Source: Sulfobacillus acidophilus DSM 10332 (GTDB lineage Bacteria > Bacillota > Sulfobacillia > Sulfobacillales > Sulfobacillaceae). Taken from it: a DNA stretch of 64,000 nt. A program made the translations under genes and the position numbers. Location: the NCBI GenBank assembly GCA_000237975.1, contig CP003179.1, forward strand, positions 2,572,270-2,636,269. The letters are read 5' to 3'. The notes under the pieces are model-generated. The model made no database searches. It was not told the DNA's origin and saw only the letters and a list, made by a program, of their open reading frames with translations. Positions within the stretch are counted from its first letter, which is position 1, and each line of letters opens with the position of its first letter. Of the stretch, positions 35,588-45,355 are shown piece after piece.

Positions 35588-36745
35588 ATGTCACCCTATC
35601 GATGGAGCCCTACCCCGTCGCCGCTTTCGCCCCGGGCACAGGAAGAACGAAGCGACTGGGATCATGTTTTTCGGCAATGGACCACGCTCTTGCAGCAACA
35701 ATTTCCGGAACACCTGGCGTATCTGGTTTGGGATGCCCCACGCATTCACGCGCTGGAATTGGTCGCCGACGAAATCATGCCACAATATCCCGATTGGGAT
35801 CCCGCGTTGGCACCGGTCCTTCGGCGAGCCTGGATCAATCGCTTAACCGGGCTAGGCCCGTTAGAAGACCTCCTGTTGGATGAAACCGTAAGCGACATTA
35901 TGATTAACGGACTCGATGCCTATGTAGAACAAGGCGGGCAGATTACACCCGTCGCTTGGCCTATCCATGACGTCGACGAAGTAGCCGACTTGGCTCGCCA
36001 ACTGGCGAGTCGCGCCGGCCGGCAGCTCACAACGGAGAACCCGCTATGCGACGCCATTTTGTCCGACGGTTCGCGTATCCACCTCGTTCTGCCGCCGGTC
36101 AGCGAGGTTCCCGAGATTACCATTCGCCGGGCCTCCGGCACCCCGTTATCGCTGGAAGACTACTTTCGTCTGGGATCGTTAACCGAAGCCTTATGGGACG
36201 ATTTACGCGCACGTGTCGTCGCCCGCCAAAATATTCTGGTCGCCGGTGGCGCCGGAACCGGAAAAACCTCTCTTTTACGCCTGTTAGCCACGCAGATTCC
36301 TGATCACGAACGGCTGGTCACTATCGAAGATGTCCGTGAATTAAATCTGACCCATCGGAATACCGCGCGTTTGGAATCGCGTGCCCAATGGCCCGTTCAC
36401 CGCCTGATTATCGAGGCCTTGCGGATGCGGCCGGATCGCATTATCGTGGGCGAAGTACGCGGCGGGGAAGCCTGGGACCTCTTGGAGGCCATGGCAACCG
36501 GCCACCCGGGATCGCTCAGCACCGTGCACAGTGGCGGTGATGCCTTGAAAGCGATTAAACGCCTTTCTCGCATGGCGATGTATCAAACCCGCCCAATCCA
36601 ATACGATCAGATTGTCGCGCATGCCCTGGACACGATTGATGTGGTCGTCAATGTTGAACGCGCAGCCGACGGACACCGGCACATTCGGGCGGTGAGTGAA
36701 ATTGTCGAAGGCACCATTCGCTCCGTATGGGAATTTCGGTCATGA
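35588..36745 (+). CDS. tadA: TadA/CpaF-type secretion ATPase (VirB11 superfamily)
   Basis: A 385-residue hexameric-type ATPase. An N-terminal domain with [20 protein letters not shown] near residue 97 precedes the ATPase core: Walker [17 protein letters not shown] near residue 220, [10 protein letters not shown], and [20 protein letters not shown] followed by [12 protein letters not shown] near residues 282-315. All are CpaF hallmarks; it lacks the FHA or receiver extension of longer homologues. It powers Tad pilus assembly with TadB/TadC. ATG follows GAGGT. It overlaps the next gene as ATGA. Confidence 0.9.
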
Positions 36746-37434
36746 GAGAGTTCTGGGCCATCATGGCCGGATTCATGGTGTTGGGTTTTCTCATCCCGCT
36801 TCCTGTAGAATATGCCACCCTGGCCTGGCTTATCACCGGATGGTCGCATCAATGGCTTTTGATGCTGCTCGCCATCGCCGAAGGATTGGCGCTTGGCCTC
36901 TATCACCAAACCCGACGCTGGAGCCGGCGCCGCGATCAGGATGCCGAGGAGGCCGACGCCTTATTACAGCAATTAAACCAATTGATGTCGTGGGGCCATT
37001 CCTTAGCCCAATCCTTAGATTCCCTCGGCTATCGAATCGGCGGTCAAACCACCTCGGCCGAATCCGTCCTCCAAGAACTGGCTCGGCATTACCGGGTGTC
37101 GGGGTTGGAGGTGGTCGCGGATACCGCCGCAAGCATCCAAAAAGACGGCGGCTCCTTATTACCGGTGATTCAGTGGGCACGCCAACAAATAACCCGAGAC
37201 CGTCAGGAGCGGTTTGCCCGACAACTGGAAGAATCGTCGAAGCAAAGTACCATTCTCATTTTATCGTTGGCGCCCTTTGGCGTGCTGTTGTTGTTTCGGC
37301 TCATATTACCTCCGTTTTACCGCGCGGTGGTTGCCACCTCGCTAGGCCATGCCGCCTTGATCCTCATCTTGACGTTACAAAGTCTGGTTTGGGCTTTCCT
37401 CATTCTCTATTTACGAAAGGACGACCACCGCTAA
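36742..37434 (+). CDS. tadB: TadB-like inner-membrane platform protein (T2SSF domain)
   Basis: A 230-residue membrane protein with two helices at the N-terminus, a soluble helical T2SSF-type domain (about residues 70-165, with VLQELARHYRVSGLEVVADT) and two helices at the C-terminus. Its position after TadA and its layout fit TadB, though it is shorter than many (about 300). ATG at 36742 overlaps the tadA stop; ATG 36727 is an in-frame alternative. It ends overlapping tadC by 1 nt. Confidence 0.75.
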   Translation: MREFWAIMAGFMVLGFLIPLPVEYATLAWLITGWSHQWLLMLLAIAEGLALGLYHQTRRWSRRRDQDAEEADALLQQLNQLMSWGHSLAQSLDSLGYRIGGQTTSAESVLQELARHYRVSGLEVVADTAASIQKDGGSLLPVIQWARQQITRDRQERFARQLEESSKQSTILILSLAPFGVLLLFRLILPPFYRAVVATSLGHAALILILTLQSLVWAFLILYLRKDDHR

Positions 37435-38069
37435 TGTTGGCGATCGGATCCTTCTTGTTGGCTTGTGGATTTGCCGGCCGCAGTTCCGTCAATCGGTCGG
37501 CCATTTGGGCCGCCTTTGGCGTATGGATAGGGGCCTTTCTTTTCCATCGTCCGCTAATCATCCCGAGCCTATTATTGCTGGCGGGTGGCGTAGCACAAAT
37601 CGCCATCCGTCGGCCTACTGCGCCGTCCCAAAATCTTCGGCGTCGGGGACTCATTCGATTTTGGCAAAAAGTCGGGGTTTTTTTGTCGGCGGGCATGACC
37701 CTATGGCGAGCCATCGAATCCGCGGCCGTCCGCGATCCCGTCGGGTTCGCCATTCAGGCTTATGCGGCCGAAGTGCTCGGTTTACGATCCCCGGAAACGT
37801 CCGATCCGATCGCCGACCTTAAAGACCTCCCGGAGTTACCCGCCATTTTGGGGACCATTCGTCACGGGTTTCGACACGGCGTTGATCATCACCTGATAAC
37901 CCAGCAAGCCAAAGACTGGGACGCCCGCCTGCAATTTGAAGCCCAATTTCGTCAACGCCGGGATCCGTTATGGCTGTCGGTGATACCGGCCCTCTTATTG
38001 TTAAATGTCCTGTGGCTATTTTTGGCCCCCCTGGCCCAAAGCTTGTCGGCCGCCTGGCTCCACCTCTAG
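37434..38069 (+). CDS. tadC: TadC-like inner-membrane platform protein
   Basis: A 211-residue membrane protein with hydrophobic segments at the N-terminus (residues 1-60) and C-terminus (about 180-210), and a central soluble domain containing FLSAGMTLWRAIESAAV, as in T2SSF modules. ATG overlaps the tadB stop (TAATG). The stop codon is 3 nt from the boundary of the group II intron. The order tadA-tadB-tadC is that of canonical tad loci. Confidence 0.7.
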   Translation: MLAIGSFLLACGFAGRSSVNRSAIWAAFGVWIGAFLFHRPLIIPSLLLLAGGVAQIAIRRPTAPSQNLRRRGLIRFWQKVGVFLSAGMTLWRAIESAAVRDPVGFAIQAYAAEVLGLRSPETSDPIADLKDLPELPAILGTIRHGFRHGVDHHLITQQAKDWDARLQFEAQFRQRRDPLWLSVIPALLLLNVLWLFLAPLAQSLSAAWLHL

Positions 38070-38072
38070 ACA

Positions 38073-39961
38073 ATCGAGTAGGGGCGGGTGACTAACCCGC
38101 GCCCTCTCACACCGCCGTACGTACCGTTCGGTATACGGCGGTTCATGGCCAGCGTAGACGTGTCGTTTCATACCGGCTCAGGAGGCGTTGTAAGCCTTGT
38201 GCATCCCAGTACGCCACCGTTAGTATGCTGTTCAAAGGTCCCGTGGCAATACGCCACGGGCCTTTGCGTGACATGGCCAATTCCCACGCCTGCCACTCCT
38301 TGACCCCCAGCGCCCGTAATTCGCGCAGGCGAGTCCGGGGCCGCGTCCAGCGTCGCCAGACGATGGCCCGAAAGCGATGGCGAATCCAACTATCCAGGTC
38401 CCGCAGGGGCGTCGGCGTATCCACGAGAGCGAAGTAGCCTATCCACCCGGCAAGGTACCGGTTAACTTGCTGAATTCGCGCCTCTAAGCGCCCCGGTGCA
38501 TGTCGGTCGGTGAGTTCCCGCAAGCGGCGCTTGACGCGCCGCAGGGACTCGCGGGCTCGTCCAATCCGATATTGACCCCGGTACTTCAAAAATTTGAACC
38601 CGAGGTACGGTCGGCGGGTTAGCCGGTCGACCGCGCTTTTCGCGGTGTTGACGGGCAAGTGGAGGCGGTGTTCAAGATAGCGGGTGACTGAGGTCAAGAC
38701 CCGCTCTCCTGCCCGTTGGGAATGCACGAATATCATCGCGTCGTCCGCATAGCGGACGAATGCCACCCCCCGCCGCTCGAGTTCCTTGTCGAAATCGTCG
38801 AGGACGATATTGGCCAGCAACGGGCTGAGCGGTGAGCCTTGGGCGGCTCCGGCCGTTCGCGGGGCACTCACGCCATCCACCCTAATGCCGGCTTGGAGGT
38901 ATCGCCGGATGAGCCGCAATACCTGCAGGTCTTGGACCCGGCGCGCGACGCGCGCCATCCGGATGTCATGATTAATCCGGTCGAAGAACTGCTCCAAGTC
39001 GAGGTCGACCCCCCATTCGGCCCCGTCCTCGGCGAGCCGACGGACATGCCGCACGGCTTGGTGGGCACTGCGTCCGGGCCGAAAGCCGAAGCTGAAGTCC
39101 GCGAAGTGGGGGTCAAAGATGGGCGTCAGGACTTGTAAGACAGCTTGCTGGATAAAGCGGTCGACCACGGTGGGGATGCCGAGCGTCCGGACGCCCCCGG
39201 TGGGTTTCGGGATTTCGACCCCTCGGATGGCGTGCGGACGGTAGGTGCCGTCTCGCAGTTGCGGACGAATCATCGGCCAGTGCGCCCCGAGATAGTCCAC
39301 CAATGCCTTTGTGGACACCCCGTCGACGCCCGGTGCGCCATGGTTGGCCACCACGCGCCGTAGCGCGAGCCGAAGATTCTGCGCGTCCAGTATGGCCTCC
39401 ATGAGACCGAGTGTGCGACACGTCGGGTGTCGAGGTTCCGGATGCCGGGGACCCACTCGGCGCCTGTATCGGCCCTGCGGGCTTCACCCGTTCATCCGCT
39501 CCGAGGCCCTCGCGCCGCGAGGTATTCGGCTGTCGTCGCAAGTCCCACGAATCCATGAACTGCCCCACTTTCTGGTAATGTTCGGTCCTTCAACTGGCGC
39601 GGCCGCGCCAGTCTACGATGACCTCGGCTGACGTCTCTCGCGTCACACGCCCCTTGCGATGCGTCTTCCCGCGCGGCGGTACCGCGAGAGATCTCCCCGG
39701 GTAAGAGCGTGCCCTGTCCCTCCATCTACCGGGTGCATTGACGTGACGCGCGCTTGACCGTATGGGGCTTCGTTCCGTCGAGCGAACTCACCCCGCGCGC
39801 CCCGCCTCGGATGCACTTCCGGTTCGTCCGGCCGGAGGTTTGCCGCCGGCTTCCTTCGGATTCCACCTCACGGCGGACATCCTTGCCGTGAGCTAACGGT
39901 TGGAACGGTCATCCCCCGTTCAGGACTTCCACCTTAAAGTACACGCCCATGCCGGGCGCAC
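38073..39961 (-). mobile_element. Group II intron, class C-like
   Basis: About 1.89 kb, read on the minus strand. The 5' end GTGCGCCCGG at 39961-39952 fits GUGYG. The 3' end is a domain V hairpin (38109-38144; arms accgccgta and tacggcggt, 2-nt bulge, inner stem) and a domain VI stem ending in CCCCTACTCGAT. The encoded reverse transcriptase has no endonuclease domain. The 5' exon is an intrinsic terminator stem-loop ending about 5 nt from the insertion point, the target type of class C introns. About 500 nt of the ribozyme lie 5' to the reverse transcriptase gene. The last base is uncertain by 1-2 nt. Confidence 0.88.
38143..39456 (-). CDS. ltrA: Group II intron reverse transcriptase/maturase
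   Basis: A 437-residue intron-encoded protein. LMEAILDAQNLRLALRRVVA near residue 18, GAPGVDGVSTKAL, SFGFRPGRSAHQAV near residue 121, AAQGSPLSPLLANIVLDDFD near residue 202 and the catalytic VRYADDAMIF near residue 228 are reverse transcriptase blocks. The maturase domain X follows (NRYLAGWIGYFALVDTPTPL). No HNH endonuclease domain, as in class C introns. GTG at 39456 is a nominal start; ATG at 39402 (MEAIL) is as likely. The stop lies at the edge of domain V. The gene looks intact. Confidence 0.93.
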   Translation of the reverse strand: MGPRHPEPRHPTCRTLGLMEAILDAQNLRLALRRVVANHGAPGVDGVSTKALVDYLGAHWPMIRPQLRDGTYRPHAIRGVEIPKPTGGVRTLGIPTVVDRFIQQAVLQVLTPIFDPHFADFSFGFRPGRSAHQAVRHVRRLAEDGAEWGVDLDLEQFFDRINHDIRMARVARRVQDLQVLRLIRRYLQAGIRVDGVSAPRTAGAAQGSPLSPLLANIVLDDFDKELERRGVAFVRYADDAMIFVHSQRAGERVLTSVTRYLEHRLHLPVNTAKSAVDRLTRRPYLGFKFLKYRGQYRIGRARESLRRVKRRLRELTDRHAPGRLEARIQQVNRYLAGWIGYFALVDTPTPLRDLDSWIRHRFRAIVWRRWTRPRTRLRELRALGVKEWQAWELAMSRKGPWRIATGPLNSILTVAYWDAQGLQRLLSRYETTRLRWP

Positions 39962-39966
39962 TCGAT

Positions 39967-40000
39967 AGAAGACGCCGCCCAGTTACGAGCGGCGTCTTCT
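39967..40000 (-). terminator. Shared intrinsic terminator stem between the two convergent operons
   Basis: A perfect 12-bp stem (agaagacgccgc with gcggcgtcttct) and 10-nt loop, 17 nt after the stop of the gene at 40018. The group II intron begins 5 nt after it on the minus strand. Before intron insertion it would also have served the tadABC operon from the other side. Confidence 0.85.
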
Positions 40001-40017
40001 CCTGCTATCCCCTGCGA

Positions 40018-40989
40018 TTAGTGCCGTCCGAATCCTCGCAGGCGATCGGTCCACCGGGAAGCGGCAGCCGTCGATTGAGTGGTGGGGGTCAGGTGGCGTT
40101 CGGCCACGTGAAGACGGTCAACCACCCGTTTAACCGTCGGGTGAACCCCGGCCAACGACCAACATTCGATCGTCAGTGACGGCAATAACGGCCGGATGGA
40201 TTCGACGGTCGATTGGAACACCGTGGGCGGCGTGTCCCGATCGACCCACAGTATGAGCATATCCAGATAGGGCAGGGCCGCCCAGGCCATATTGCTCAAA
40301 CGGCGTCCGAAATCCCACGCCTGCCACGAGTCTATTTGCCGCACTAACCATTCAATTTTCGACCCGGTTGCCGATTCCGGCAACGGAAGCCATGGCGGCG
40401 GGGCCGGTACAATCCAGTAACCCGTCCCTTCTACCTTGCGTAAAAGGGCCCATTCGGATCGGCTGGTGGAGGGTCCGATCCGTGTTTGCGCCAATGTGAA
40501 TCCGGCACTGTCCCAATCCAAATCAATCCAGCCGCCGTCCTTTCCGGTCGCCGTGACCTTCCGAATCCACCAGTCCCATAACGGGCGGCGGTCGGGATAG
40601 GGATAAAGACTCAACATCCCCCACCGCCGGGGTATCATCGTCTCGTGACTTGCCACCGCCGGCGGATCCGGTGAAATCCACTGCCTAAGCCGGGTTTGAT
40701 CAATCTCGCCTCGCCATATCGACACCCCGTGAGGGGGTGAAGACACCACCCGAGCCGCACTGACCCAAAACACCCATTCAATGTGGGGATATTGCCGACA
40801 TAAAACCCACCACGCGTCGGAATCGACCGGTAACCCCGATAGGGCTTCTCCCACCAGCACCTGCCGTGCCCCTGAAATCATCGGTTCTAACGTATCCCAG
40901 CGATCCACCGCGGTAATCGCCAGGCGGTCCCCGTATGTCTCCTCGACCCATCGATTGAGGCCTATTTGGCCCGAGGCCAGGATAATCAC
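40018..40989 (-). CDS. Hypothetical protein in TadZ/CpaE position
   Basis: A 323-residue soluble protein. The first 110 residues resemble a receiver-like alternating fold (MIILASGQIGLNRWVEETYG, LPVDSDAWWVLCRQ), and the rest is Trp-rich. The place in a tad-type locus next to an SAF protein is where TadZ/CpaE would be expected, but I see no deviant Walker A motif, so it is either a degenerate TadZ or an unrelated protein. It overlaps the SAF gene by 4 nt and is the last gene of the minus-strand operon. Confidence 0.5.
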   Translation of the reverse strand: MIILASGQIGLNRWVEETYGDRLAITAVDRWDTLEPMISGARQVLVGEALSGLPVDSDAWWVLCRQYPHIEWVFWVSAARVVSSPPHGVSIWRGEIDQTRLRQWISPDPPAVASHETMIPRRWGMLSLYPYPDRRPLWDWWIRKVTATGKDGGWIDLDWDSAGFTLAQTRIGPSTSRSEWALLRKVEGTGYWIVPAPPPWLPLPESATGSKIEWLVRQIDSWQAWDFGRRLSNMAWAALPYLDMLILWVDRDTPPTVFQSTVESIRPLLPSLTIECWSLAGVHPTVKRVVDRLHVAERHLTPTTQSTAAASRWTDRLRGFGRH

Positions 40990-41531
40990 GGCACACCTAC
41001 CAGCATCACAAGACCCGCTTTTTCATGTTGATATAAGGCGATGGCCTCTTGCCAGGGCACCAGTAAAGCCACTGCCGCCCCGCTTCCGATCGCTTGATTA
41101 ACCCCGATGACCGTTAACGGAGACGATTGCCAAATAATCTGTTGGCCACTCCAGACCACCACTTGAACGCTCGCTCCGGGACTGGCAAGAAACGTATCGG
41201 CGGCAGCGCTAGGCGAAACCGTCATCACCACCCAGTTTTCTGGAATTTTGCCGAGCATTGCCGGCGTCACCACCGCTCCCGGCCAGAGCGGTTCTCGGGC
41301 ATAGCCCTGCAGTCGATTCGGATTGATGACCCCCATAGCTGTCTCTGGCACCCAACGCAAATCGGCCGCCGTTACGGGACTTCCCGGGGGCACGTAGCGG
41401 GTCACCACCGGCACCTCCACGACCGGACGGCTGGGTGTTAACCAACTCGATCCGAGAAATACCGCCCCGCTGACGACCAGCGCCAAGGGCCCCGCCTTAC
41501 TCCAGGGCCAGTTCGGCCACCTCAACATCAT
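40986..41531 (-). CDS. SAF-domain protein, CpaB/RcpC-like
   Basis: A 181-residue protein with one N-terminal membrane anchor (residues 13-32) and a periplasmic or extracellular domain. PVVTRYVPPGSPVTAADLRW near residue 40, continuing through PGAVVTPAMLGKI near residue 83, is the SAF module found in CpaB/RcpC pilus-assembly proteins. It is shorter than typical CpaB (about 250). It overlaps the following gene by 4 nt and follows the VirB4-like ATPase by 16 nt. Confidence 0.7.
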   Translation of the reverse strand: MMLRWPNWPWSKAGPLALVVSGAVFLGSSWLTPSRPVVEVPVVTRYVPPGSPVTAADLRWVPETAMGVINPNRLQGYAREPLWPGAVVTPAMLGKIPENWVVMTVSPSAAADTFLASPGASVQVVVWSGQQIIWQSSPLTVIGVNQAIGSGAAVALLVPWQEAIALYQHEKAGLVMLVGVP

Positions 41532-41547
41532 CTTCCCTCCCCACGCC

Positions 41548-43221
41548 TTATCTTCGCCACTCCGCTTGCAACACCCGTTGTTCGGCCGGCGAAAAAATCA
41601 CTTTGAACGGGACATGCGCATCTTCGGCCAATAGTAACCCTTCGCCGGTCATCGCCCCTTTCAATCGCTCAAGCTCTCCCTCATGAAGTCGCATGACCTC
41701 GGATAAATCGGTTAAGCTGTCGGGATGTTGCCGCATTAAATTCACTAAGGGGGCATTGCGAAGACATACTTCGGCGGCATGACTTCGCGTCAAATCGCCA
41801 ATATCCTGGGTCACCAACGAAATCGCGGTACCCCATTTGCGGGCTCGCCGAAACAATTCTTCCAGGTAGGTCACGACCCCGACGTCATTGAATAAATGCC
41901 ACGCTTCATCGAAGATCACCAGGCGGCGGACGTCACGGCTCACGCGCCGCATCACCCACTCCGTCAGGGCGAGATACGCGGCCGCCTTCATGTGTTCGGT
42001 CAATCCGCTGAGGTCGAATATTTCAAAGTCATCGGGCGGGGACCCGCCGGGGGCCCCCAATAACCGATTCCAACGCTCCCAACTGAGGGCCAAGCGATCG
42101 CCGGCGCGGCGATTCTCGTCGGTCAACAGTTGAATCAAGCGGTCCGCCGTAAGAACCTTACCCTGCAGAGGAAAAAAACGGGTGCGGGTTTCACTCACCT
42201 GCAACCAAACCACATCCCGGACCAAAGGTCCAAATTCCGTCATCAAATCCGGATTGAGGCGGGTTAACAACCGTAGCAAAAAGTCCGCCTGCCGCTCCCG
42301 CTCTTCCGGTTCCAGACTGCCGTCAATCGTGAAGGGGTCAAACACAAAGCGAGGCGTCGGGGCTTGCCCGAGTGCCCAGCGGGTTGCCCCGACCGCCTCC
42401 AAAATCCGGTATTCGCCCTCCGGATCGATAATCGTGACAGCCCACCCGCGGTACCGGGTCCGCAGAGCTTCCAGTTTCGACAAAAAACTTTTACCGCTAC
42501 CGGACCACCCGACCGTAACGGAGTGGGGAGAGGCCAATCGAAACCGATCGACGACAATCAGCGAATGGGTATCCGGGTTAATCCCCATGACTTGTCCGGA
42601 GGCATGAACCAATTCTCGAGATGAAAACGGGAACACGGTGGCCCAAGCCTGGCTGTCCATTTCGCGCACTTTGTCGGTCGGAGAGGCCAACGGTAAGAGA
42701 CGGCGCAAGCCGAGCTGTTGTTGAAACCGAAGCGGCCGAATGATTAACAGCATTCCTTGCGTTAAGCTTTCCAAGAGACGTGAGCGCTCTTCCAAAAGAT
42801 CTTGGGACTCCGCCCAAATCGTCAAGGTCATGCCGACTTCCAACAGCCGGGTTTCCCCTCGCGCGACTCCCACTCGAATTTGGTGAGCATCCTCGATGGC
42901 GGTGCCCTCCTCCGCCGAGGCCAAGCGGCCGCCCCGATTGGCCGCCTGCTGGGCTCCTAACCCCCAGATTAACCGCCGATTAATGGTCCGCATGGCCTCC
43001 TGATTGGCCACCGGTCCCGTACTGAGCGCCAACGTCAGCGGAAAGGGGACAGCCAAGAGCGGTTCAAACCATCCCGGTTCCACGGTCCGGGGATAGCCGG
43101 CAACCGTATAGCTACGAATCCACCATGGGCCCAGTTTGGCCAGGTTACTGGCCACTTCAACGGAATCGGGCCATACGGCATCTAACGGATCCGGCCGCTG
43201 CCGCCGCTGCCTTATTCCCAT
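41548..43221 (-). CDS. VirB4/TraE-type secretion ATPase
   Basis: A 557-residue ATPase. Walker A SVTVGWSGSGKSFLSKLEAL near residue 240, Walker B VRRLVIFDEAWHLFND near residue 445, and SLVTQDIGDLTRSHAAEVCL following it are VirB4/HerA-superfamily features. It lacks part of the normal N-terminal domain, which is encoded separately by the overlapping upstream gene. ATG at 43221 overlaps that gene's end by 10 nt; a TTG at 43227 is an alternative. In conjugation systems VirB4 energises pilus biogenesis and DNA transfer; no relaxase or VirD4 is found here. Confidence 0.85.
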   Translation of the reverse strand: MGIRQRRQRPDPLDAVWPDSVEVASNLAKLGPWWIRSYTVAGYPRTVEPGWFEPLLAVPFPLTLALSTGPVANQEAMRTINRRLIWGLGAQQAANRGGRLASAEEGTAIEDAHQIRVGVARGETRLLEVGMTLTIWAESQDLLEERSRLLESLTQGMLLIIRPLRFQQQLGLRRLLPLASPTDKVREMDSQAWATVFPFSSRELVHASGQVMGINPDTHSLIVVDRFRLASPHSVTVGWSGSGKSFLSKLEALRTRYRGWAVTIIDPEGEYRILEAVGATRWALGQAPTPRFVFDPFTIDGSLEPEERERQADFLLRLLTRLNPDLMTEFGPLVRDVVWLQVSETRTRFFPLQGKVLTADRLIQLLTDENRRAGDRLALSWERWNRLLGAPGGSPPDDFEIFDLSGLTEHMKAAAYLALTEWVMRRVSRDVRRLVIFDEAWHLFNDVGVVTYLEELFRRARKWGTAISLVTQDIGDLTRSHAAEVCLRNAPLVNLMRQHPDSLTDLSEVMRLHEGELERLKGAMTGEGLLLAEDAHVPFKVIFSPAEQRVLQAEWRR

Positions 43222-43802
43222 GCCCAATTGACTCCCGGCCTTAACGGTTGCCCCCCGCCTAAACTCGCATATAGAAAGCGGAACAGGTCGTCCTTTTCGA
43301 GTGGATGAAGCCGCATCCCGAGTGGTCGTAACCCTTGACCAATGACTTCTTTCCGCCGGCTCAACTCAAGCTCGGCCTCATCCCAGAGGACTTCCCCCCG
43401 TCTTCGGGGACGGGAACGGGTGTCGGTACCTTGCCAGGACAAGATAATAAAGAAACGGCGCCGCACCAAATGATGGACCGAGACCGTTTGCTGCAAAAAC
43501 TCGATATAATCCGCCAAAGAAGGGCGCAAATGAGCTTCGATTTGTTCTTCCCGGCTTTTTAATTCGCCTAGGTATTCGTCCAACCGCAAGTAATCCGACC
43601 GCACCAAAATCTCCACCGGAAAACTTAAGCCGTTTAAAAACGCGGTATACCCGCTAATTAACCGTTCTTGCTCCCGGTTGGACCGTAATCCAAAATTAAT
43701 GGGCGTCGCTTCGAGAACGGTGGTAAAACGGTCACGACCGACCAGACAGATACCGGGCCCCACCGCTCGAATGGGAAATAATCGATTGATTTTCACCGCC
43801 AT
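43212..43802 (-). CDS. VirB4 N-terminal-domain-like protein
   Basis: A 196-residue soluble protein. FPIRAVGPGICLVGRDRFTT near residue 9 and TPINFGLRSNREQERLISGY near residue 33 match the N-terminal domain that precedes the ATPase in Gram-positive VirB4/TraC-like proteins. It is followed directly, with a 10-nt overlap, by the ATPase-bearing gene, so VirB4 appears split into two polypeptides. It is preceded 45 nt upstream by the PrgI-like gene. Confidence 0.7.
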   Translation of the reverse strand: MAVKINRLFPIRAVGPGICLVGRDRFTTVLEATPINFGLRSNREQERLISGYTAFLNGLSFPVEILVRSDYLRLDEYLGELKSREEQIEAHLRPSLADYIEFLQQTVSVHHLVRRRFFIILSWQGTDTRSRPRRRGEVLWDEAELELSRRKEVIGQGLRPLGMRLHPLEKDDLFRFLYASLGGGQPLRPGVNWAWE

Positions 43803-43847
43803 GTTATCACCCCATGCATCATTTAAATTGGGTTCAGGGTGCCACGC

Positions 43848-44126
43848 TCAAGGTAAGTAGCGCCGCGGCGAGCAGAGAAAGAAAAGCATCCGCCAAATCC
43901 ATTGGGGAAAAGAACTCTCGTCGAAACGGCCCCAAGTCAATACGGCCGCCATTAAGGAAATGCCGCCGATACCTGCACCGCGTGCAACCAGCGGCTTTAC
44001 CACGTGCCAGGCCCATAGATCCAGCGTAATTCCGGCCACGAGCCACGGTATATCGCTTAGTCGAAGACCAAATAAGATTTCCGGTTCTCGGGCAAGCGGT
44101 AAAAGCACGGTACGCGGAGTCGCCAT
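43848..44126 (-). CDS. PrgI-family membrane protein (VirB3-like)
   Basis: A 92-residue protein with a polar head (TVLLPLAREPEILFGLRLSD), two adjacent hydrophobic helices (about residues 30-66) and a basic tail ending PRRYLP. This is the layout of PrgI, the VirB3 counterpart in Gram-positive type IV secretion systems, normally placed just before VirB4, as here. ATG at 44126 lies 5 nt after the VirB6-like stop with a GGGGGTGG site. Confidence 0.72.
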   Translation of the reverse strand: MATPRTVLLPLAREPEILFGLRLSDIPWLVAGITLDLWAWHVVKPLVARGAGIGGISLMAAVLTWGRFDESSFPQWIWRMLFFLCSPRRYLP

Positions 44127-44131
44127 CCGAT

Positions 44132-44902
44132 TCACCACCCCCGCCCGATGAGGTGTCGAAATTGGGTGGGGATTTTCGTCATATACCACAATAACCCCAC
44201 CTCCAAAATCAGGCCGGTGGCATTGAGCGCGTGTCCTCCGAGCATCCCCCAGGCGATCCACAAGACCCCCGCGTGAAGGCTTTGAACAAATATCAATGCG
44301 ACCAATTCCCGAAACAACCGGCCAATGCCGGTCGGATGAAACCCGGTTGCCCAGAGAAGCGCCCCCCAGGGCAAAAGTGCCGTCAACAGCAAGATTTCGA
44401 TACTTCGGATGGCGTAAAAAACGGCCAAATAGACCACTAGCGCGACGATCAACAGAGAAAAGACCAACACCAGCAGCGGGGACATCCAAGAGGCGGTTAT
44501 CGGACTGGCCGGCCAAGCCACTGTCGGCGGTTTCAACGCCAACACCATTCCGTCGTTGATGCCCAGCAATTGGTGCACCGTCCATAACCCGGCACTCCCC
44601 AACACCGCGGCGACCACCGTCCGCTCGACAAATTCCCACGGGCCCATCGGATAGAGGCCCGACCACCCCATTTGCGGCCACATCAGACGCATAATCCCGA
44701 GAATTAAGAGAAGGCCGGCCACTCCCCAGCACAAATGAAGGCTGAGGTAATAAAAAGCGGTTGCAGCCCTGGGCCACGCCAAAGGAGCTAAAATGGTGTG
44801 GCTCACCAGCTGCTCGCTTAATGACGCCAATTGTTGCCACAACCAACCGGAGAATATCCGAATCCCCTGGGCTACCGGATTAAGGGACGGCGTGAGATTC
44901 AT
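44132..44902 (-). CDS. VirB6/TrbL-like polytopic membrane protein
   Basis: A 256-residue membrane protein with about six helices. The core IRSIEILLLTALLPWGALLW and LVALIFVQSLHAGVLWIAWG between about residues 160 and 220 recalls the central section of VirB6/TrbL and archaeal CedA proteins, which form the transmembrane channel part of type IV systems. The gene abuts the VirB2-like gene and precedes PrgI, which is the expected order. Family assignment is by topology and context, not by strong motifs. Confidence 0.65.
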   Translation of the reverse strand: MNLTPSLNPVAQGIRIFSGWLWQQLASLSEQLVSHTILAPLAWPRAATAFYYLSLHLCWGVAGLLLILGIMRLMWPQMGWSGLYPMGPWEFVERTVVAAVLGSAGLWTVHQLLGINDGMVLALKPPTVAWPASPITASWMSPLLVLVFSLLIVALVVYLAVFYAIRSIEILLLTALLPWGALLWATGFHPTGIGRLFRELVALIFVQSLHAGVLWIAWGMLGGHALNATGLILEVGLLWYMTKIPTQFRHLIGRGW

Positions 44903-45135
44903 CAGGACACCACAAATTGAATCACTTGCCGTAACACGTCGACCATCAACACCAGTCCAAGCCCAATCGCCGCACGGCCCATTAAACTTTTTGCCGAGTC
45001 GACAGCACGCGGATTATGCGCTAACATAAACCGAAGAGCGCCATAGACCATGACCAGGGTAAATACGCCGCCCGCCAAGTCGGTAAGGAGTGCGGTGAGG
45101 TGTGTCACCGCCCCCATTAACGGGGCATCAGGCAT
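44902..45135 (-). CDS. VirB2/TrbC-like pilin
   Basis: A 77-residue protein with two hydrophobic helices (about residues 9-37 and 56-74) joined by a short basic loop (AHNPRAVDSAKSLMGRAA). Small two-helix proteins upstream of VirB6 are VirB2-type pilins. The ATG at 45135 has an internal AGGAG site; the first in-frame ATG at 45156 would leave that site inside the coding region. The stop overlaps the VirB6-like start by 1 nt. It is the head of the minus-strand operon. Confidence 0.65.
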   Translation of the reverse strand: MPDAPLMGAVTHLTALLTDLAGGVFTLVMVYGALRFMLAHNPRAVDSAKSLMGRAAIGLGLVLMVDVLRQVIQFVVS

Positions 45136-45186
45136 GTTGACATCGCTCCTTTGCATGCCATTTGGTTCGCAATCCGTTACCCGGTC

Positions 45187-45271: not shown

Positions 45272-45355
45272 TTTTCGACAATATATCGAATCTACGCGGA
45301 TAAAACGTGAGTATTTTTGCCATTGATAGCTTTACTTCGTGTTTTTTCGACATAA

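Follow-up and report, generated by a model that had tools for sequence, protein, structure and literature searches.

A chromosomal operon of Tad and type IV secretion genes in Sulfobacillus and its relatives, a candidate machine for DNA exchange between cells

Plasmids pL15 and pY0017 of Sulfobacillus thermotolerans and the integrated element Kr1 carry a type IV secretion system (T4SS) together with TadA/TadB/TadC, and have been described as conjugative (PMC6803676). In archaea the chromosomal Ced system of Sulfolobales and Ted system of Thermoproteales transfer chromosomal DNA; Ced works together with the Ups type IV pilus, a MinD/ParA gene is also part of Ted loci, and the VirB4 N-domain is shared out between CedB and CedD (PMC9905601, PMC11868833). 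Here we analyse a 64,000-nucleotide stretch of the Sulfobacillus acidophilus DSM 10332 chromosome (the window), positions 2572270-2636269 of the larger (3,472,898 bases) of the two contigs in a 3,557,831-base genome, in which a Tad motor and VirB-like genes lie side by side between 35,588 and 45,135. The genes belong to a single operon that is chromosomal, vertically inherited and fixed in Sulfobacillus and its relatives, and we put at roughly 0.5 the probability that this hybrid machine has been domesticated for DNA exchange between cells.

The locus shares with pL15, pY0017 and Kr1 the joint presence of MinD-like, TadA, TadB/TadC, VirB4 and TrsL/TrsB-type genes, and a plasmid relative in genome G016 (our label, as are those below) has the order VirB6-PrgI-VirB4N-VirB4C-T4SS pilin-MinD-TadA-TadC. 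The conjugation systems of pL15, pY0017 and Kr1 are mobile and have a relaxase, a linked TraG/VirD4, a primase and a lytic transglycosylase, whereas the chromosomal operon is syntenic and has none of these linked to it; beside the G016 plasmid hybrid genes no relaxase was found by Pfam among the proteins scanned, while one is reported for that plasmid family (PMC6803676). Like Ced/Ups and Ted, the operon is a chromosomal VirB2-, VirB6- and VirB4-like set with no linked relaxase, but it includes a putative PrgI/VirB3, has its Tad genes in the same operon, and is only a candidate for DNA transfer. Its VirB4 is of the bacterial CD1110/FATA type (CD1110 4.5e-60 against CedB 1.1e-5 in NCBIfam, a comparison that covers VirB4 only). 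The initial annotation had likened the parts list to Ced/Ted, and this holds for the design; because VirB4 belongs to the bacterial monoderm (FATA-type) family, the archaeal machines appear to be analogues, not close kin. The chromosomal T4SSs of Patescibacteria resemble the operon in that the VirB4 N and motor parts are separate in most loci read and that VirB2-like pilins are present, several in many loci, and also in that their type IV coupling protein (T4CP) is mostly encoded far from virB4 (PMC12102498); they differ in having pilin arrays, in the lack of Tad genes from the loci read, and in belonging to another phylum. SAF/CpaB, TadZ, TadA, TadB and TadC follow the usual order of the canonical monoderm Tad (type IVc) pilus, but the order's operon has no Flp or TadE/F genes and has T4SS core genes upstream.

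One chromosomal operon, vertically inherited

In most genera of the order (Sulfobacillales) the genes virB2-virB6-virB3-virB4N-virB4C-SAF-tadZ-tadA-tadB-tadC are collinear on a single strand. The window copy differs: its tad half has been inverted, with a group II intron where the two halves meet. The gene positions and strands of the initial annotation, which described two convergent operons, are confirmed, but the collinear relatives show that these are one ancestral operon broken by inversion. The intron (Rfam D1D4-3) sits at the point of inversion, immediately beyond the stop codon of tadZ, and may have helped the rearrangement.

A search with the VirB4 motor found it in 46 of 81 relatives, and a VirB4 profile identified an orthologue in 40 of the 42 genomes of the order, nearly always accompanied by a TadA orthologue (42-58% identity). 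The two exceptions, G005 and G024, are without VirB4 and TadA orthologues alike; in a further genome, G021, VirB4 is present without an orthologous match for TadA. It had been proposed that co-conservation of the two halves would support one system, and this is what the relatives display, not only where the operon is collinear: in genera g8 and g11 and in genome G002 tadABC is detached yet retained, on the same strand at 23 kb (G016), 30 kb (G023) and 23 kb (G020), elsewhere on another contig. The flanking genes (thioesterase, amino-acid permease, RNA methyltransferase and gatB) are the same in the window and in relatives, and VirB4 and GatB patristic distances are correlated (r 0.94), as vertical inheritance predicts. 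Being syntenic across an order, the gene set stands far above chance. The patchy distribution and variable insertion sites of mobile elements are not seen, and the suggestion that this is not an ordinary conjugative element is borne out by the chromosomal location, housekeeping flanks and near-universal presence in the order. In G035 (C1, about 1.59-1.62 Mb) the whole operon is in tandem duplicate, the VirB4 motor of the second copy being broken into several frames; a degenerate copy was seen only in this genome, beside a second, intact one.

Named VirB4 matches are from Sulfobacillus harzensis, S. thermotolerans, S. benefaciens and metagenome-assembled genomes of acidophiles, followed by the chromosomal T4SSs of Patescibacteria. 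Elsewhere in the class, hybrid operons are present in genus g21 (G047, G072), family f41, G116 and G077. In g21, which is of another family, tadC is followed by three pilin-like genes, and virB4 is a single, fused gene. In both VirB4 and TadA trees the order, g21 plus f41, and the plasmid and integrative conjugative element (ICE) copies fall apart; G138 has ComEC with a VirB4-TadA cluster, and its VirB4 groups with mobile-type copies. No chromosomal-type operon was found on plasmids, the closest plasmid VirB4 match having about 31% identity.

The sequence TGTCGAA, the core Spo0A box (PMC3485338), lies upstream of virB2 in 27 of the 39 order loci read, in some of them in tandem at 10-base spacing; its background rate is 0.04 per 250 bases. 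The window has two such sites, at 45274-45280 and 45346-45352 on the minus strand. In genus g8 the box is absent upstream of virB2 but present upstream of a VirD4-like gene. Spo0A itself was found in nearly all genomes of the order, though not in G047 of genus g21. We predict from these sites that Spo0A would control the operon.

A VirD4-like ATPase in trans and the absence of ComEC

The initial annotation reported neither relaxase nor VirD4, and none is adjacent to the operon: no T4CP gene adjoins it, it contains no relaxase or known DNA-processing nuclease, and no relaxase was found among the flanking genes scanned (housekeeping or intron), a genome-wide relaxase search not having been made. 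Elsewhere on the chromosome, however, a PF02534 search exposed a VirD4-like ATPase of about 500 residues (G000:C1:2848005-2849465, 1.2e-13). It is followed by a PF13814 (Replic_Relax) gene, and the pair is syntenic across genera of the order and found also in f41 and g21. The PF13814 partner has a conserved motif, E-x-DTG-x-E-x3-QW-x2-KL-x2-Y, and a MinC_C protein is encoded near the VirD4-like gene.

The VirD4-like profile matches 59 of 154 genomes of the class, or 54 when five weaker matches in long mobile-type frames are set aside, and 53 of these 54 carriers also have a VirB4 match. The gene is missing in G005 and G024, the two genomes of the order without the operon.

The genomes with the VirD4-like gene share a further property, the lack of ComEC (PF03772), the product of the standard DNA-uptake gene. 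It was detected in 80 of the 112 class genomes outside the order and in not one of the 42 inside it; it is present in 0 of 54 VirD4-like-positive against 80 of the remaining 100 genomes (Fisher 4e-25, genomes treated as independent), and outside the order in 0 of 19 against 80 of 93 (2e-13, on the same assumption of independence). Mapped onto a 29-genome RpoB tree, the two labels, hybrid and ComEC, require three changes, at least two of them forced by well supported branches, so that more than one event lies behind the pattern, though only a small number; the hybrid label here includes G057, G104 and G118, in which the VirD4-like gene and VirB4, though not an adjacent tadA, were seen. Most of the order lacks DprA too, and most of it has no ComGA-like ATPase, which indicates that the transformation pathway was lost as a whole.

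Genes of the S. acidophilus locus

All T4SS-type genes of the window are on the minus strand. The virB2-like pilin gene (44902..45156, 84 residues) matches T4SS_pilin PF18895 at 1.3e-5, its score of 25.6 bits lying just below the Pfam cut-off of 26.6, and orthologues are present in the loci of the order. Their starts make position 45135 (77 residues) the likelier start, which agrees with the end first assigned to the locus. The virB6/TrbL-like gene (44132..44902) encodes a polytopic channel protein of 256 residues; TrbL_4 (PF19597) is matched by 16 of 19 orthologues, while the window protein alone has no convincing family match. Next is a prgI/virB3-like gene (43848..44126, 92 residues), whose PrgI match in Pfam is weak (E 0.09) but whose size and place, the latter kept in 41 loci, fit.

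VirB4 is encoded by two overlapping genes, a TrsD-like N-terminal half (43212..43802, 196 residues; NCBIfam TrsD 1.1e-4), separate in 42 loci of the order, and the motor half (41548..43227, 559 residues). As the same split is found in other members of the order, it is not a sequencing error. The motor half matches the CD1110-family VirB4, as do 15 of 15 orthologues tested, its profile matches the solved VirB4 4ag5 at 4.2e-36, and its Walker A (GWSGSGKS) and Walker B (LVIFDEAW) motifs are intact. The canonical order of VirB2-, VirB6-, PrgI/VirB3- and VirB4-like genes given in the initial annotation thus stands, with profile support that is slight for PrgI and with VirB4 as two genes, not one; an unrelated family, which would have spoken against that assignment, is not indicated, the profiles placing the VirB-like proteins in the monoderm (FATA-type) bacterial conjugation family. 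Of the features of FATA-class mating-pair formation systems, the FATA/CD1110-type VirB4 and the VirB6/TrbL-like channel are present.

The SAF-domain CpaB/RcpC-like protein recognised at the outset (40986..41531, minus strand, 181 residues) matches SAF PF08666 at 6.3e-5 (Pfam) and CpaB at 1.6e-3 (NCBIfam). The last gene of this half (40018..40989, minus strand) encodes a 323-residue tadZ/cpaE-like protein with no Pfam match, which we compared, together with the VirB6-like protein, with known structures through predicted models. Its AlphaFold model (mean predicted local distance difference test score, pLDDT, 86; predicted template modelling score 0.63) has a receiver-like N-terminal domain and a MinD/ParA C-terminal domain. 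The best structural match is 3ea0_A (Z 15.5, root-mean-square deviation 3.1 over 187 residues), many MinD/ParA entries match at Z 12-15, and the fourth Foldseek match is 3fkq, a two-domain Eubacterium rectale protein that serves as a TadZ model (PMC10499894). A GGVGTTT-like P-loop is kept in orthologues of family f2 and lost in the window copy. On its predicted fold the protein would be a degenerate TadZ, and together with the SAF gene it completes the usual Tad order CpaB-TadZ-TadA-TadB-TadC. The VirB6-like model (pLDDT 86) has R388 VirB6 (7o3v_F) as its best PDB match, with Z 10.8 and a deviation of 5.3 over 218 residues; such a Z is moderate by the standards of helical proteins, yet VirB6 takes each of the first three places among the matches, in agreement with the TrbL_4 matches of the orthologues.

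On the plus strand lie tadA/cpaF (35588..36745), a motor ATPase of 385 residues (T2SSE 1.2e-41 in Pfam; TIGR03819, the TadA family, 4e-65), and two platform proteins: tadB (36727..37434, 235 residues), recognised by position and orthologue profile, and tadC (37434..38069, 211 residues), whose family profile also matches the canonical Tad platform gene at 7e-15. T2SSF has no Pfam match in the window TadB/TadC, yet is present in 6 of 18 TadB/TadC orthologues, and the TadA-TadB-TadC motor first proposed is upheld. The class features of Tad systems are accordingly present as TadA/CpaF ATPase, two T2SSF-type platform proteins and TadZ/CpaE, whereas no Flp, TadE or TadF pilin genes were seen after tadC in those loci of the order that were inspected. 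The group II intron (38143..39877, minus strand) is no part of the machine; it has a reverse transcriptase/maturase at 38143-39456 (RVT_1 7.5e-37, GIIM 3.1e-18) and RNA domains at 39585-39877 (Rfam RF02001 9.1e-26, and RF01998). The genome has three further TadA genes (G000:C1:820169, 1160005 and 1195101), the first in a canonical Tad locus with TadE-type genes.

What the machine may do

Since plasmids and an integrated element of the same lineage carry the same mix of Tad motor, MinD-like and VirB4 genes, the best reading is that the operon would be a domesticated relative, lacking a relaxase, of the Tad/T4SS systems by which Sulfobacillus plasmids conjugate. Exchange of DNA appears the likeliest function because of the homology of the VirB4, VirB6 and VirD4-like proteins, the PF13814 gene beside the last of these, the related plasmid systems and the lack of ComEC. 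A monoderm-type VirB2/VirB6/VirB3/VirB4 core here shares a single operon with the genes of a Tad module (SAF/CpaB, TadZ, TadA, TadB and TadC). The Tad motor would make or drive a surface filament or cell-cell contact, TadA possibly standing in for VirB11, a related ATPase usually missing from monoderm systems; VirB2, VirB6, VirB3 and VirB4 would form the conduit and its motor; and the VirD4-like coupling ATPase and the PF13814 protein, encoded in trans, would feed or receive what we infer to be DNA, in either direction.

Several observations weigh against DNA exchange. The operon is without a relaxase or nuclease, as noted, and the VirD4-like gene is tied to it through co-occurrence only and is missing in five genomes of the order that have VirB4, four of them less than 85% complete and the fifth, G004, 91%. 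The Fisher values ignore the relatedness of the genomes, outside the order 13 genomes have neither ComEC nor the VirD4-like gene, and the general disappearance of transformation genes could be older than the hybrid and unconnected with it. VirB4 and TadA show no co-evolution beyond common ancestry (partial r 0.04). Nor is there a Tad-type pilin: neither the inspected loci of the order nor those of family f41 yielded a pilin gene after tadC, although the canonical Tad locus may provide Tad pilins.

Tad pili serve mainly in adhesion, and SAF, TadZ and TadABC make up half of an operon that has no relaxase, so the machine might instead be one of adhesion or aggregation, a Tad-type pilus merged with a VirB2-type pilus that attaches to minerals or kin and moves no DNA. 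We consider this unlikely, if the most serious of the alternatives: a separate, canonical Tad locus that includes TadE-type genes is retained in relatives, so that VirB4, VirB6 and the VirD4-like ATPase are not needed for adhesion alone, and adhesion leaves the absence of ComEC unexplained. Chromosomal T4SSs of other bacteria often secrete proteins. A contact-dependent secretion of effectors, with the VirD4-like ATPase recruiting proteins as in bacteria-killing or host-directed T4SSs, would also be consistent with the related chromosomal VirB4 system kept by Patescibacteria (PMC12102498). This is the more doubtful of the two, as no effector or immunity-like genes were seen adjoining the conserved operon, and the partner of the VirD4-like gene is of PF13814, a family named for plasmid replication-relaxation, a pairing that points to DNA. 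A reading as anti-phage defence was rejected, PADLOC having given only generic ATPase matches.

That the locus is what is left of a conjugative plasmid or ICE once integrated there is suggested by the same Tad and VirB4 set on plasmids and integrated elements of the lineage (PMC6803676) and by the inversion and intron of the window copy. It is already largely refuted, and very improbable, given that the gatB and amino-acid permease neighbours are common to many genera, that the Walker motifs are intact, that in the trees the order's VirB4 and TadA sequences are clades distinct from the plasmid copies, and that a degenerate copy was seen only where an intact one stands beside it. The convergent arrangement in the window, with an intron between, would by itself allow two unrelated operons that are neighbours by chance, but the collinear operon of most relatives and the retention of both halves where they are separated refute this, and we give it next to no weight.

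In its fullest form the DNA-exchange reading would make the operon the counterpart in bacteria of the Ced-Ups pair: a fully domesticated conjugation machine fused with a Tad motor in one Spo0A-controlled operon, exchanging the chromosomal DNA of kin and having taken the place of ComEC-type transformation in several lineages within one class of Firmicutes. We offer this tentatively, as somewhat less probable than DNA exchange as such. A description of the chromosomal operon was not found in the open-access literature; the plasmid form and the archaeal domesticated T4SSs are already known, and what is new is the chromosomal Tad/T4SS operon. To the knowledge of Beltran et al. (2023), a conjugation apparatus domesticated for DNA transfer had not been reported beyond the archaea studied (PMC9905601). 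The operon is a strong bacterial candidate for one, in acid-loving organisms and with a built-in Tad motor, itself a filament type of archaeal descent (PMC6668835), and it bears on the ways in which Tad and T4SS parts combine. As genomes with the operon lack ComEC, there is a clear prediction, testable in cultured S. thermotolerans, S. harzensis and S. acidophilus, that members of the order may exchange DNA without transformation.

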